Source: Gemmatimonadaceae bacterium (GTDB taxonomy: Bacteria > Gemmatimonadota > Gemmatimonadetes > Gemmatimonadales > Gemmatimonadaceae). Taken from it: DNA of 64,000 nt. Positions within the stretch are counted from its first letter, which is position 1, and every line of letters starts with the position of its first letter. The notes beneath the pieces were generated by a model. The model was given only the letters and a program-made list of their open reading frames with translations. It did no database searches and was not told where the DNA came from. Shown one piece after another: positions 14,300-59,852 of this stretch. Where the stretch lies: positions 62,001-126,000 of the forward strand of contig JADZAN010000036.1 of NCBI GenBank assembly GCA_020852815.1, in the 5' to 3' direction. Both the position numbers and the translations under genes were made by a program.

Positions 14300-15640
14300 T
14301 TAGGCGTCGGGGAGTCCGTATTCCTTGATCTTCTTGATCAGCGTGGCGCGCGAGATTCCGAGTTCGCGAGCCGCGTGCGTGCGATTTCCCTCGCGCAGGC
14401 GCAACGTGCGGACGACATGCTCGCGCTCGACATCGGCCAGCGTCTTGCCCTCGAGGCGATCGGCGGCCGTGGCGCCGGGAAATGCCCCGCGCACCTCGGG
14501 AGGGAGCGATGACAGTTCCAGCGTCTTCTCGCCGCGACCGACGATCATGCCGCGCTCCAGCACGTTGCGCAACTCACGGATGTTTCCCGGCCACGCATGG
14601 CGCAGGAGCGCATCGAGCGCGCCCTCGCTCACCTCGCGCGGCGCCGCGGGAAGGTGCGGCGCCAGCTCATCCATCAGGCGTCCGATCAGCTCGACGAGGT
14701 CCTCGCGCGAACGCGCACGCAGCGGCGGGAGCGTGAGCGGCATGACGCTCAACTTGTAGTAGAGATCTTCGCGGAAGTTGCCCGCGTTGACCTCGTGCAC
14801 GAGGTCCTTGTTGGTCGCTGCGATGATGCGCACATCCACGGTGAGTTCGCGCGTGCCACCGACGCGCCGGAAGCCCTTTCCTTCGAGGACGCGCAGCAGC
14901 TTGGACTGGAGCGGCGCCGGAAGCGCCCCGATCTCGTCCACGAAGAGCGAGCCCCCGGCCGCCACCTCCAGCAGCCCCGCTCGCGCGCGGTCGCCCGCCG
15001 CGTCGTCGATGCCGAAGAGTTCCGCATCCAGCGCATCTCCCGCGTGCGCGGCGCAGTTGACTTCCACCAGCGGAGCGTGGGCCCGCGCCGAGTGGGCGTG
15101 GATCATCTCCGCCACGCGCCCCTTCCCCGTCCCGCTCTCGCCCAGCAGGAGGACGGTGGTGCGCTCGGAGGCGGCGAGCAACTCCACCTGCGCCGCAAGG
15201 TCGTGCATGTGCGTCGAACTCCCGATCGCGACGCTCCCACCGGTGGTGCGACGCTCGGTGAGGTACCGTGACAGCTGTCGCAGTCGCACCTTCTCCAGCG
15301 CGCGTTCCACGGCGACGAGCAGGTGGGGAAGCTCCACCGGCTTGGTGAGGAAGTTCTCGACCCCTTCCTGCACCGCGCGCACGGCCAGCGGGACGTCGGC
15401 ATGCCCCGACACCATGACCACCACTGGGTCCTGGTCGCGCAGGCGCGCGTAGACGTCGAAGCCGGTCATGTCGGGGAGGCGCAGGTCGAGCAGCGTCACG
15501 TCGGGGCGTCGCTCGCGCCAGGCGACGAGCGCCTCCTCGCCGCTGCGCGCCACGCGCACGGTGTGTCCCGCCCGGGACAGGAAGCGCTCGAAGCTGTCGG
15601 CGAGCAGCGGCTCGTCGTCGACGATCAGCAGGTCGCCCAC
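14300..15640 (-). CDS. NtrC-family response regulator lacking the GAFTGA motif
   Basis: A 446-residue regulator with three parts. The receiver (about 3-120) has phosphoacceptor Asp in VTLLDLRLPDM. The AAA+ domain (about 145-375) has Walker A GESGTGKG and Walker B GGSLFVDEIGALP. The C-terminal Fis-type helix-turn-helix contains NRTHAARELGISRATLIKKI. The loop after ELFG, where sigma-54 activators carry GAFTGA, reads IDDAAGDRARAG, so normal contact with sigma-54 is doubtful. GTG 15640 begins four bases after the kinase stop and just before the receiver; an upstream ATG at 15679 would overlap the kinase gene. It is presumably the partner of that kinase. Confidence 0.85.
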   Translation of the reverse strand: MGDLLIVDDEPLLADSFERFLSRAGHTVRVARSGEEALVAWRERRPDVTLLDLRLPDMTGFDVYARLRDQDPVVVMVSGHADVPLAVRAVQEGVENFLTKPVELPHLLVAVERALEKVRLRQLSRYLTERRTTGGSVAIGSSTHMHDLAAQVELLAASERTTVLLLGESGTGKGRVAEMIHAHSARAHAPLVEVNCAAHAGDALDAELFGIDDAAGDRARAGLLEVAAGGSLFVDEIGALPAPLQSKLLRVLEGKGFRRVGGTRELTVDVRIIAATNKDLVHEVNAGNFREDLYYKLSVMPLTLPPLRARSREDLVELIGRLMDELAPHLPAAPREVSEGALDALLRHAWPGNIRELRNVLERGMIVGRGEKTLELSSLPPEVRGAFPGATAADRLEGKTLADVEREHVVRTLRLREGNRTHAARELGISRATLIKKIKEYGLPDA

Positions 15641-56046: not shown

Positions 56047-57327
56047 ATGCGTTCGCATACGTACAGCAAGTTCTCCCCCGAGGCCGCGGACGCCATCGAC
56101 CTCGACGCGCTGCTGGAACAGCTCTCCGACTTCCTCCTGCAGTCGGGCTTTGCGGGGGGCGCGCAGTACCATCCGTTCTGGGGTGAGACGGGAGAGGACG
56201 GCGACCGGTCGCTCGACGCCCTCAAGCAGGCCATCCTGCAGGCGCTGATCGACAGCGGGCAGTTCACCCCCGAGATGCTCAAGGCGCTCCGCGGCGACGA
56301 CGACGAGGACGCGCAGGACTCGCTCGCCGGGCTGCTCGACGACCTCGTGAAGCGCCTCATCGAGCAAGGCTTCCTGAACCTCGAGGCGCCGCCGGAGATC
56401 CCCGACTCGCATGAGGCGATCGAGGGGCCCGGCGGGCTCGCCCGCGCCGCCTCGCGCGACGTCAACTTCCGCCTGAGCGACAAGGGGATCGACTTCCTGG
56501 GCTACAAGGCGCTCCGCCACATCCTCGGGTCGTTAGGCAAGTCGTCCGTGGGGAGCCACGACACCCCCTTCCTCGCCACCGGCATCGAGGCCGACGCGTC
56601 GAGCAAGCCGTACGAGTTCGGCGACACGCTCAACCTCGACGTCAACGAGACGCTCAAGAACACGCTCACCCGCACGGGATCGTTGGAGGCCCCGCTCGAC
56701 ATCGACTATCCCGACCTCATGGTGCGGCAGGCGGAGTACCGTTCGTCGTGCGCCACGGTCCTCATGCTCGACTGTTCGCACTCGATGATCCTGTACGGCG
56801 AGGACCGCTTCACCCCCGCCAAGAAGGTCGCCCTCGCGCTCACGCACCTCATCCGCACGCAGTTCCCCGGCGACACGATTCGCGTGGTGCTCTTCCACGA
56901 CTCGGCGGAGGAGATCCCCATCGCCACGCTCGCCCACGCGCAGGTGGGCCCCTATCACACGAACACCGCCGAAGGTCTCAAGCTCGCGCGCCGCATCCTG
57001 ATGGCGCAGAAGAAGGACATGCGACAAATCGTCATGATCACCGACGGCAAGCCGAGTGCGCTGACGATGCCGAACGGCCAGGTGTACAAGAACTCCATGG
57101 GCCTCGACGCCTTCGTCCTGCAGGAGACGATTCGCGAAGTCGCCAACTGCCGCCGCGCGGGGATCGTCATCAACACCTTCATGCTCGCCCGCGACCGCGC
57201 CCTGGTCGAGTTCGTGAAGCACGTCTCGTCGATCTGCCGCGGCAAGGCGTACTTCACCAACACCATGACGCTGGGTCAGTACATCCTCATGGACTTCCTG
57301 CGGAAGAAGACGCGCAAGGTCTCCTGA
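56047..57327 (+). CDS. VWA-domain protein (MoxR partner type)
   Basis: A 426-residue protein. The N-terminal 190 residues are helical and acidic (run of Asp/Glu near 84-92). The C-terminal von Willebrand A domain (about 235-410) has an intact [20 protein letters not shown] (DxSxS) and [13 protein letters not shown]. Metal-dependent protein binding is its likely job, as partner of a MoxR-type ATPase such as that at 42807-44285. ATG 56047 has GAGG six bases upstream. Confidence 0.88.
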
Positions 57328-57398: not shown

Positions 57399-57427
57399 TT
57401 GCGCACCCGAGGAGGGCGCGCTAGGAT
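57399..57427 (+). promoter_or_regulatory. Promoter of the riboswitch-homoserine dehydrogenase unit
   Basis: TTGCGC (57399-57404), a 17-base spacer and TAGGAT (57422-57427). Transcription would start near 57434, about ten bases before the riboswitch stem, which is the expected place. Confidence 0.6.
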
Positions 57428-57444
57428 GCGCTCCATAACCGAAG

Positions 57445-57498
57445 CTCGTGGCGATTTACGGCATATTGCGGCCACGTAAAACATCTCGCTAAAAAGCC
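57445..57498 (+). ncRNA. SAM-II-type riboswitch
   Basis: The segment matches the SAM-II aptamer as I remember it. Stem P1 is CGTGGC (57447-57452) with GCCACG (57471-57476). The 18-base loop starts GATTTA and includes ATATTGCG. A linker of T, A4 and CATCT follows, and then the diagnostic CGCTAAAAAG (57488-57497). The loop GCG can pair with the downstream CGC to make the pseudoknot. SAM-II binds S-adenosylmethionine and usually controls methionine or homoserine genes, and the next gene is homoserine dehydrogenase. Confidence 0.85.
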
Positions 57499-57535
57499 AC
57501 TCAGTCCGGGGCTTTTGCCGTCGGGCTTTTTTTTT
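57491..57535 (+). terminator. Terminator-like hairpins overlapping the riboswitch 3' end
   Basis: The AAAAAGCC at the end of the aptamer (57491-57498) can pair with GGCTTTT (57510-57516) or with GGCTTTTT (57524-57531); the second lies at the head of a nine-T run (57527-57535). The two pairings exclude each other and both use bases of the aptamer core. This suggests control by transcription termination, while SAM-II is usually described as acting on translation. Confidence 0.6.
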
Positions 57536-57578
57536 CCCCCCGACGTCAAGGCGCGGCGAGTGGGGGAGAAGAAGCACC

Positions 57579-58565
57579 ATGACACTTCCCGTCCTCCGCG
57601 TCGGGCTCATTGGCAACGGCACCGTCGGCTCCGCCTTCGCAAGCGCACTCGACGCCAACCAGGAGCGCCTGACCCAGCGCCTTGGCGCTCGCCTGCGCCT
57701 CACGCAGGTCGCCGTCCAGCACCCCGACCGCCACCGCTCCACGCTTACCGGCGTCCGCGTCCACGACGACGCTGAGGGGCTCGCCCTCGACCAGGGCGTC
57801 GACGTGGTCGTCGAGGCCAGCGGCGCACCGAACGCCTCGCAGTGGCTCCATCGCGCCATTGCGCGCGGCGCGGCGGCCGTCTCGGCAAACAAACAGGCGA
57901 TTGCCGCCGATCGAACGCTCCTCGCGCTCCTCGCGGATCGTCATCCGCTCCTGCACTGCGAGGCCGCCGTCGCCGCCGCACTCCCCATCGTGCGCGCCCT
58001 GCGCGATTCGCTCGACGGCGAGGAGATCCACAACATTCGCGGCGTCCTGAACGGGACCACCACCTTCATGCTCTCGCAGATCGAGCGCGGCGCGCGCTTC
58101 AGCGATGCGCTCACCCTCGCGCAGGAGTTGGGCTACGCCGAAGCCAATGCGGAGGCGGATCTCAGCGGGCGCGATGCCGCGGCGAAGCTCGCCATCCTCG
58201 CCACGCTCGCCTGGCGCCGCCCGGTCACCGTGCACGACGTCACGACCAAGGGGATCAACGAGAATATCGTCGACGTGGTGCGCGTCGCGCGCGAGCACGG
58301 AAGCCGCGTGCGCCTGGTGGCCGAGGCGTGGGAAGACGCCGCGTTGCAGCTGCGTGTGGAGCCGCGGATCCTGCACCCGCGCGACGTCCTGGCGCGCTCG
58401 GAGGACGTGGTGAACGTGGTGGAGGTCCAGAGCGCGCTTGCCGGGCCGCTGGTCTGGTATGGTGCGGGGGCGGGCGGCGCACGCACCGCTTCCGCGTTGT
58501 TGGGAGACCTGCTGGTCGCCTCCCGCGCCCTGGTCGGCGCCACTGCCGGAAGGATTGCGGCGTGA
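57579..58565 (+). CDS. hom: Homoserine dehydrogenase (no ACT domain)
   Basis: Reduces aspartate semialdehyde to homoserine with NAD(P)H, at the branch to methionine and threonine. The 328-residue protein has the nucleotide motif LRVGLIGNGTVGSAFA, AAVSANKQAIAAD, the catalytic-domain block IRGVLNGTTTFMLSQIE, and GYAEANAEADLSGRDAAAKLA with the catalytic Asp/Lys. It lacks the C-terminal ACT domain that gives threonine feedback in longer forms, so SAM control through the upstream riboswitch may take its place (inference). GGGGGAG lies ten bases before the ATG. Confidence 0.94.
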   Translation: MTLPVLRVGLIGNGTVGSAFASALDANQERLTQRLGARLRLTQVAVQHPDRHRSTLTGVRVHDDAEGLALDQGVDVVVEASGAPNASQWLHRAIARGAAAVSANKQAIAADRTLLALLADRHPLLHCEAAVAAALPIVRALRDSLDGEEIHNIRGVLNGTTTFMLSQIERGARFSDALTLAQELGYAEANAEADLSGRDAAAKLAILATLAWRRPVTVHDVTTKGINENIVDVVRVAREHGSRVRLVAEAWEDAALQLRVEPRILHPRDVLARSEDVVNVVEVQSALAGPLVWYGAGAGGARTASALLGDLLVASRALVGATAGRIAA

Positions 58566-58652: not shown

Positions 58653-59852
58653 GTGTCACCTTCCGAGTCGCGTCCCCTCACCGCCGCCGCCGATCACGCG
58701 CCCGTGGGCGATTCCCTTCCTGAACTTTCGCCCGACGAACTGATCCGCTACTCGCGCCACTTCCTGCTGCCGGGAGTTGGGCTCGATGGGCAGCGGACGC
58801 TCAAGGCGGCCCGCGTCCTCATCGTCGGCGCGGGAGGGCTTGGCTCTCCCGTTGCCCTCTACCTCGCCGCCGCCGGCGTGGGCACGCTGGGTATCGTCGA
58901 CTTCGACCGCGTCGACGTGACCAACCTGCACCGCCAAATCCTCCACGGCACGAGCGATGTGGGGCGCAGCAAGCTGCAGTCGGCCACCGACCGGCTGCGC
59001 GAGGTGAATCCCTTCGTCACGGTGGAACCGCACGAGATGCGCCTCACCGCGGCCAATGCACTCGAGCTGTTCCGTCGGAACGACGTCATCATCGACGGCA
59101 CCGACAACTTCCCGACGCGCTACCTGGTCAACGACGCCTGCGTCCTCACGGGAAAGCCCAACGTCTACGGCTCCATCTACCGCTTCGACGGACAGGTCTC
59201 CGTCTTCTGCACGAGCGACGGCCCGTGCTATCGCTGCATCTATCGCGAGCCGCCGCCAGCGGGAACGGTCCCCAGTTGCGCCGAAGCCGGCGTGCTCGGC
59301 ATCCTCCCCGGCATCGTGGGCGTGCTGCAGGCAACCGAGGCGATCAAGTTGATTCTCGGCATCGGCGAGCCGCTCATTGGACGGCTCACCATGGTCGACG
59401 CACTCGGCGCGCGGCAGCGGACTGTGAAGATCAGCAAGGACCCCACGTGCCCCGCGTGCGGCACCCGCGAGCTGCAATCTCTCATCGATTACGATGCGTT
59501 CTGCGGCATCGGTGCGGCGCCGGCACAGACGCCCGTCCCCGAGATCACGCCCCGGGAGCTGGCCGCGAAGCTCGAGCGCGGCGATGACTTCGTCCTGATC
59601 GACGTGCGCGATCCGCACGAGTACGCGATCTCCCGGATTCCTGGCGCGCGCCTGGTGCCACTCGGCGGCTTCGCCGACGCGATCCCGACGCTCGACGCGG
59701 GGACCGACATCGTGATCCACTGTCGCAGCGGCGTGCGCAGCGCCGCCGCCGTTCGCCAGCTGCAAGCCGCGGGATTCACGCGCGTGTGGAACGTGGCGGG
59801 CGGGATCCTGCGCTGGTCCGACGACGTGGACCCGACGGTGGCGAAGTACTAG
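58653..59852 (+). CDS. MoeB/ThiF-type adenylyltransferase with C-terminal rhodanese domain
   Basis: A 399-residue E1-like enzyme that adenylates the C-terminal Gly of a small sulfur carrier (MoaD, ThiS or similar) and can pass on sulfur. The adenylation domain (about 30-265) has ARVLIVGAGGLGSPVALYLA, DGTDNFPTRYLVND, and the Zn-binding pairs in GPCYRCIYREP and CPACG. The rhodanese domain (about 295-395) has the active Cys in IVIHCRSGVRSAAAV. The GTG start lies seven bases after TAGGTT (58640-58645), with no ribosome binding site. A MoeZ/MOCS3-like role in molybdopterin synthesis would suit the molybdoenzyme at 40627, but cysteine or thiamine synthesis is equally possible. Confidence 0.9.
   Translation: MSPSESRPLTAAADHAPVGDSLPELSPDELIRYSRHFLLPGVGLDGQRTLKAARVLIVGAGGLGSPVALYLAAAGVGTLGIVDFDRVDVTNLHRQILHGTSDVGRSKLQSATDRLREVNPFVTVEPHEMRLTAANALELFRRNDVIIDGTDNFPTRYLVNDACVLTGKPNVYGSIYRFDGQVSVFCTSDGPCYRCIYREPPPAGTVPSCAEAGVLGILPGIVGVLQATEAIKLILGIGEPLIGRLTMVDALGARQRTVKISKDPTCPACGTRELQSLIDYDAFCGIGAAPAQTPVPEITPRELAAKLERGDDFVLIDVRDPHEYAISRIPGARLVPLGGFADAIPTLDAGTDIVIHCRSGVRSAAAVRQLQAAGFTRVWNVAGGILRWSDDVDPTVAKY

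Follow-up and report, generated by a model that had tools for sequence, protein, structure and literature searches.

A SAM-II riboswitch with a predicted terminator and antiterminator ahead of homoserine dehydrogenase in Gemmatimonadota

The leader of hom, a homoserine dehydrogenase gene in a 64,000-nucleotide stretch of a Gemmatimonadaceae genome (the window), is by its sequence a genuine SAM-II riboswitch, predicted to bind SAM, and it very probably shuts off this methionine/threonine-pathway gene by intrinsic termination when SAM is abundant. The leader is bounded by a VWA-type gene ending at 57327 and by hom, starting at 57579. Its promoter, aptamer and target gene were located as follows.

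57399 to 57427, + strand: candidate sigma-70-type promoter (TTGCGC 57399-57404, 17-nt spacer, TAGGAT 57422-57427; read from sequence)
57438 to 57512, + strand: SAM-II aptamer (RF00521, SAM_alpha; cmscan)
57447 to 57476, + strand: P1 stem, CGTGGC 57447-57452 with GCCACG 57471-57476 (sequence, cmscan; kept in all relatives)
57460 to 57498, + strand: P2 pseudoknot, with P2b GGC 57460-57462 and GCC 57496-57498, and P2a TTGC 57466-57469 and GCTAA 57488-57492
57579 to 58565, + strand: hom, homoserine dehydrogenase, 328 aa (Pfam PF03447 and PF00742)

When the window was searched with cmscan against all Rfam families, RF00521 matched at 57438-57512 with 38.2 bits (E 4.6e-05), above its gathering score of 36 and with the model covered end to end; SAM_alpha was the sole family above threshold within the 64 kb. 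An earlier note on this DNA had placed a SAM-II aptamer ahead of hom, and the covariance-model score bears this out. The elements it had named were each confirmed in the sequence: P1, the GATTTA at the start of the P1 loop (57453-57458), the CGCTAAAAAG block (57487-57496), the A5GCC block (57491-57498) and the nine Ts. In addition to a score above the curated threshold, the leader has P1, an H-type pseudoknot P2 and the invariant SAM-II core GAUUU ... UUGC ... GCUAAA, with its TTGC in the P1 loop at 57466-57469. The P2b strands co-vary across leaders (GGC/GCC, GCG/CGC and AGC/GCT). Transcription likely starts near 57435, about 12 nt upstream of P1. No promoter was found by a strict consensus scan of the window; CTTGCG/CTTGACA and GATA(G/C)-like boxes are present at the equivalent position in ten relatives.

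The hom product has the NAD-binding and catalytic Pfam domains (PF03447 and PF00742) and no Pfam match to an ACT domain, as the earlier note had stated. Close orthologues were defined by E <= 1e-60 and the lack of ACT; only ten genomes in the family qualify, from five genera, and these form the hom-leader comparison. When their upstream regions were compared, the same SAM-II leader was found in 10/10, with P1 kept. A related-locus search with hom against genome contigs returned no relatives. The gene 3' of hom in the window is of the ThiF-rhodanese (MoeZ-like) type (58653-59852), and in G224 (L115) a threonine-synthase-like gene lies immediately 3' of hom.

Two hairpins are present ahead of hom, the second of which adjoins the T run.

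57492 to 57516, + strand: antiterminator hairpin, AAAAGCC 57492-57498 with GGCTTTT 57510-57516 (−7.3 kcal/mol)
57504 to 57526, + strand: terminator hairpin, GTCCG 57504-57508 with CGGGC 57522-57526, and GGC 57510-57512 with GCC 57517-57519
57527 to 57535, + strand: T9 tract of the terminator (sequence)
57458 to 57521, + strand: possible second antiterminator pairing, loop ACGGCA 57458-57463 with TGCCGT 57516-57521

Folding was performed with ViennaRNA at 37 C, giving pseudoknot-free energies. The terminator hairpin alone had −12.7 kcal/mol (z −2.8), and with its tail (57503-57535) −14.4 kcal/mol (z = −3.2 against dinucleotide shuffles). A consensus terminator scan of the window found none, its rules excluding the bulge present in this stem. 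An equivalent hairpin occurs in 10/10 hom leaders, where the stem before the U tract reads GTCC(CC)G with CGGG(G)AC or changed equivalents. The pairing is kept while the letters alter, as seen in GTCCG/CGGGC, ATCCCG/CGGGAT (G224), GTCCCCG/CGGGGAC and GTCCCGG/CCGGGAC (G200), and the inner GGC/GCC stem is usually retained. Following CGCTAAA, the leaders read AAGCCACTCAGTCCGGGGCTTTTGCCGTCGGGC-T9 in the window, AAGCCACGTCCCGGGGCTTTTGCCGTCGGGA-T8 in G093, CAGCCACTCGTCCCGAGGCGCTGCCGTCGGGAC-T5 in G166 and CAGCCCATCCGTCCCCGAGGCTATGCCGTCCGGGGAC-T5 in G069. Across Gemmatimonadota SAM-II leaders, a terminator lies within 75 nt in 111/118, compared with 48 +/- 5 of 118 in dinucleotide shuffles. An intrinsic terminator is placed between aptamer and gene, the layout of an attenuation platform, and these results favour the control by transcription termination that had been proposed.

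The part played by A5GCC differed from that first proposed. Competing hairpins before the nine Ts had been described as using A5GCC, and the A-tract as part of the terminator stem, giving an unexpected sign of control. There are indeed two hairpins, but A5GCC belongs to the first alone (57492-57516); the one adjoining the T run (57504-57526) pairs without it, in the relatives as in the window. If A5GCC were the 5' arm of the terminator, SAM would block termination and activate the gene, or coherent control would not result. By inspection, GGCTTTTT at 57524-57531 is a possible partner for A5GCC, in a pairing that would consume part of the T run. The relatives, whose arm ends GGGAT, GGGGAC or GGGGAT and not GGC-TTTT, do not preserve this pairing, whereas they do preserve the hairpin without A5GCC; the pairing is also absent from the predicted fold of 57491-57531, and SAM-driven ON control of a biosynthetic gene would be biologically odd. 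The comparison with relatives ruled out A5GCC as a terminator arm, and control built on it appears scarcely credible.

The AAAAGCC/GGCTTTT hairpin is instead best interpreted as an antiterminator in competition with pseudoknot P2, an arrangement common to Gemmatimonadota leaders and one that would restore normal OFF logic. It shares GCC 57496-57498 with P2b and 57510-57512 with the terminator, whose 5' arm lies within its loop, and so it can coexist with neither the ligand-bound aptamer nor the terminator. The helix is weak in some hom leaders, being contiguous over only 4 bp in six or seven of the ten. Most retain additional pairing of the loop with the stretch ahead of the terminator 3' arm, which in the window is the ACGGCA/TGCCGT listed above. 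This second pairing is present as ACGGCA/TGCCGT in 7/10 hom leaders; G200 has GGCG/CGCC, as does G212 when judged by eye, and G224 has lost it. With −7.3 kcal/mol against −12.7 to −14.4 kcal/mol for the terminator, the antiterminator could act only kinetically.

Across the leaders two antiterminator designs were recognized. One uses the 3' strand of P2b (b:c: GCGCC/GGCGC, CCGCC/GGCGG, GCGCT/AGCGC, AAAAGCC/GGCTTTT and AAAACGC/GCGTTTT). The other uses the loop, or 5', strand of P2b where the loop reads GCCGCC or GCCGCG (a:c: GCCGCC/GGCGGC and GCCGCG/CGCGGC). Gemmatimonadota leaders are GC-rich and built from GGC/GCC words, making alternative pairings cheap, and unanchored duplex energies of own versus swapped strands gave only modest separation over the whole set, a comparison too blunt in GC-rich leaders. 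They were replaced by anchored helix tests with swaps between leaders in two large groups. With relatedness ignored, the leaders' own b:c strands paired (Watson-Crick) in 26/55 compared with a permuted mean of 10.1 and maximum of 19, and their own a:c strands in 26/41 compared with a mean of 13.5 and maximum of 22 (2000 permutations each). A further pairing predicted by ViennaRNA, of P1a with downstream GCCAC, was set aside: P1 forms first and locally, and GCGCC-type metH leaders mostly have no GCCAC. It is retained only as a lead.

From this anatomy of aptamer, terminator and antiterminator we infer SAM binding, the sign of control and the extent of termination. In the absence of SAM, the P2 3' strand and A-tract (AAAAGCC) would pair with GGCUUUU as RNA polymerase leaves the aptamer; the GUCCG arm would be trapped in the antiterminator loop and the inner GGC occupied, and the polymerase would pass the U tract. 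With SAM bound, P2 would form (loop GGC with GCC), A5GCC would be unavailable and the antiterminator lost, leaving GUCCG-GGC to pair with GCC-CGGGC and transcription to halt at U9. One strand is common to P2 and the antiterminator, so the terminator should be released when SAM binds, making an OFF switch; with the A-tract sequestered in the antiterminator of the ligand-free ON state, the apparent sign problem vanishes. The terminator could also be a constitutive attenuator that yields a short riboswitch RNA independently of SAM, for which S. meliloti metA is a precedent (PMC9373788). That terminator is described as unaffected by SAM binding, whereas the hom-leader terminator overlaps the hairpin that competes with P2, and the antiterminator varies in step with the P2 strand from leader to leader; a constitutive role is accordingly considered very unlikely.

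A SAM-II match was present in 112/198 sampled genomes of the class. In the same genome as the window, a second copy (40.6 bits) precedes a metH-like homocysteine methyltransferase and is built like the hom leader. This leader (L001; G000:C2:407176-407252, minus strand) has a GCGCC/GGCGC antiterminator and a GCCCGG...CCTGGGC terminator with a U-rich tail. Elsewhere in the class SAM-II precedes metH, metY, metF and metX, the genes downstream of other leaders being named by clustering and inspection of translations and the profile search being applied to hom only. By inspection, several genes not usually listed for SAM-II also appear downstream: apparent panB (L004, L052, L063, L097), an ATP-grasp enzyme (L043-L045, L061, L072), threonine synthase (L046, L051, L086, L089, L099, L101, L108), aspartokinase (L092), sulfite/nitrite reductase (L075, L087) and PAPS reductase (L054). 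In L004 (G054:C13:14227-14302 minus, 14510-14583 plus) two divergent SAM-II aptamers lie about 200 bp apart. Many leaders of genes other than metH, among them each of the four metX leaders, begin the otherwise invariant GATTT with C or A (CATTT/AATTT); the change is almost never seen before metH and occurs in one hom leader (G200). Such leaders include L037, L043, L048, L052, L061, L063, L070, L072, L092-L094, L096-L097, L099, L108, L110 and L121, among others. In L006, L007 and L009, which lack a strong terminator, the SAM-II abuts the start codon (CTAAAACGCCAGGATG), and these look like the RBS-occlusion type in the same class.

Past the terminator, further helices approach the ribosome binding site of hom.

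57497 to 57563, + strand: long-range helix, CCACTC 57497-57502 with GAGTGG 57558-57563, ending 1 nt before the Shine-Dalgarno (SD) GGAG
57519 to 57545, + strand: post-terminator hairpin, CGTCGGG 57519-57525 with CCCGACG 57539-57545 (−9.9 kcal/mol, z −4.2)
57565 to 57568, + strand: SD GGAG, 10 nt before ATG, which can pair with U9C6 (57527-57541)

The post-terminator hairpin carries the U tract in its loop and is exclusive with the terminator, the 3' arm of which pairs here with a second copy of its partner; equivalent hairpins were found in the relatives' predicted folds. In 10/10 hom leaders CCACTCGTCCC, which follows the P2 3' strand and reaches into the 5' arm of the terminator, is complementary at a constant register to the pre-SD segment, leaving 0-3 nt between the long-range duplex and the SD region. 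Its energies in the ten leaders range from −20.9 to −31.1 kcal/mol with a mean of −26.2, compared with −20.3 +/- 1.1 for shuffled 3' segments, the lowest of 300 being −23.0. In G069, CCATCC/GGATGG replaces the CCACTC/GAGTGG found elsewhere, a compensatory change, and the same layout is seen in three thrC leaders (L051, L099 and L108). Conservation of the segments left an own-versus-swapped test of this helix without significance (p 0.096), and against the 85-nt downstream stretch z was about −2.5 to −0.6 among the leaders listed. The helix is thus suggested by conservation of register, the shuffles and the G069 change, with few independent changes behind it in the ten genomes.

In the nine relatives, the lowest-energy structure predicted between P2 and the start codon contained the long-range helix enclosing the post-terminator hairpin. 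The window is the exception: U9C6 can pair with GGGGGAGAAGAA and hide the SD, with three alternative states separated by no more than about 2.3 kcal/mol (−37.3, −37.1 and −35.0). The complementarity of U9C6 to this SD stretch (57562-57573), at −18.7 kcal/mol, is apparently strongest in this genome. Such pairings could mean that control is mainly translational, with the SD hidden by U9C6 or exposed by the long-range helix and the terminator secondary. The strength of the U9C6 pairing in the window and the position of the long-range helix beside the SD in 10/10 hom leaders speak for this. However, almost every SAM-II leader of the class has a terminator while the majority have no long-range helix, and on visual inspection most other hom leaders show no evident U9C6/SD pairing, so that mainly translational control appears unlikely.

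Termination thus remains the favoured reading, and the SD-proximal helices may, more tentatively, add a translational checkpoint after it. On read-through, the 5' arm region would pair with the pre-SD sequence (57497-57502/57558-57563 and beyond) and the terminator 3' arm with its copy past the U tract (57519-57525/57539-57545). This re-use of the arms would re-expose the SD so that read-through mRNA stays on; in the SAM-bound fold the terminator hairpin would persist and the SD stay hidden. Such a two-checkpoint platform is a possibility drawn from modelled folds; if true, it would be specific to hom and thrC leaders, at the branch point to threonine.

SAM-II has usually been described as blocking the ribosome binding site, as the earlier note also had it, but this is incomplete: terminators are reported 3' of many or most proteobacterial SAM-II aptamers (Corbino 2005, PMC1273637; Barrick & Breaker 2007, PMC2258182), and in alpha- and betaproteobacteria SAM-II was found mostly with terminators (PMC2258182). 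Terminator-type SAM-II has been published since 2005, and the hom leader is a further example, in Gemmatimonadota. In a literature search of limited reach, no full-text paper was found joining SAM-II and Gemmatimonadota, nor a description of the phylum-wide distribution, the antiterminator using either P2 strand, or the SD-proximal helix of hom/thrC leaders. A hom-metXC operon under SAM_alpha is reported in Hyphomonadaceae (PMC4239095), likewise placing hom under SAM-II in a different phylum and operon; the portion of that account available gives no comparable platform detail. The Sargasso Sea metX SAM-II (PDB 2QWY) has the aptamer core in common, but its SD lies in P2 for direct RBS occlusion, while the hom SD is neither inside nor adjoining P2 and lies about 65-66 nt downstream. 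The closest likeness is to S. meliloti metZ, where termination upon SAM binding is predicted (PMC9373788), and Agrobacterium metA, which share the aptamer, P2, a terminator directly after P2 and a methionine-pathway target (PMC1273637, PMC2258182, PMC9373788). In alphaproteobacterial leaders the P2 3' strand also pairs with the terminator 5' arm, and those fetched show the same trade-off (e.g. L144, AGACCGG/CCGGTCT then ACCGGTC...GACCGGT-U7). In the hom leader, by contrast, most of the terminator 5' arm is enclosed by the antiterminator loop and does not form the antiterminator 3' strand, and extra post-terminator and long-range helices precede the SD. Terminator-type SAM-II control with a clear antiterminator is thereby extended to Gemmatimonadota, where either P2 strand can couple a short pseudoknot aptamer to a terminator, and the SD-adjoining helix of the hom/thrC leaders is the part of possible interest to riboswitch specialists.
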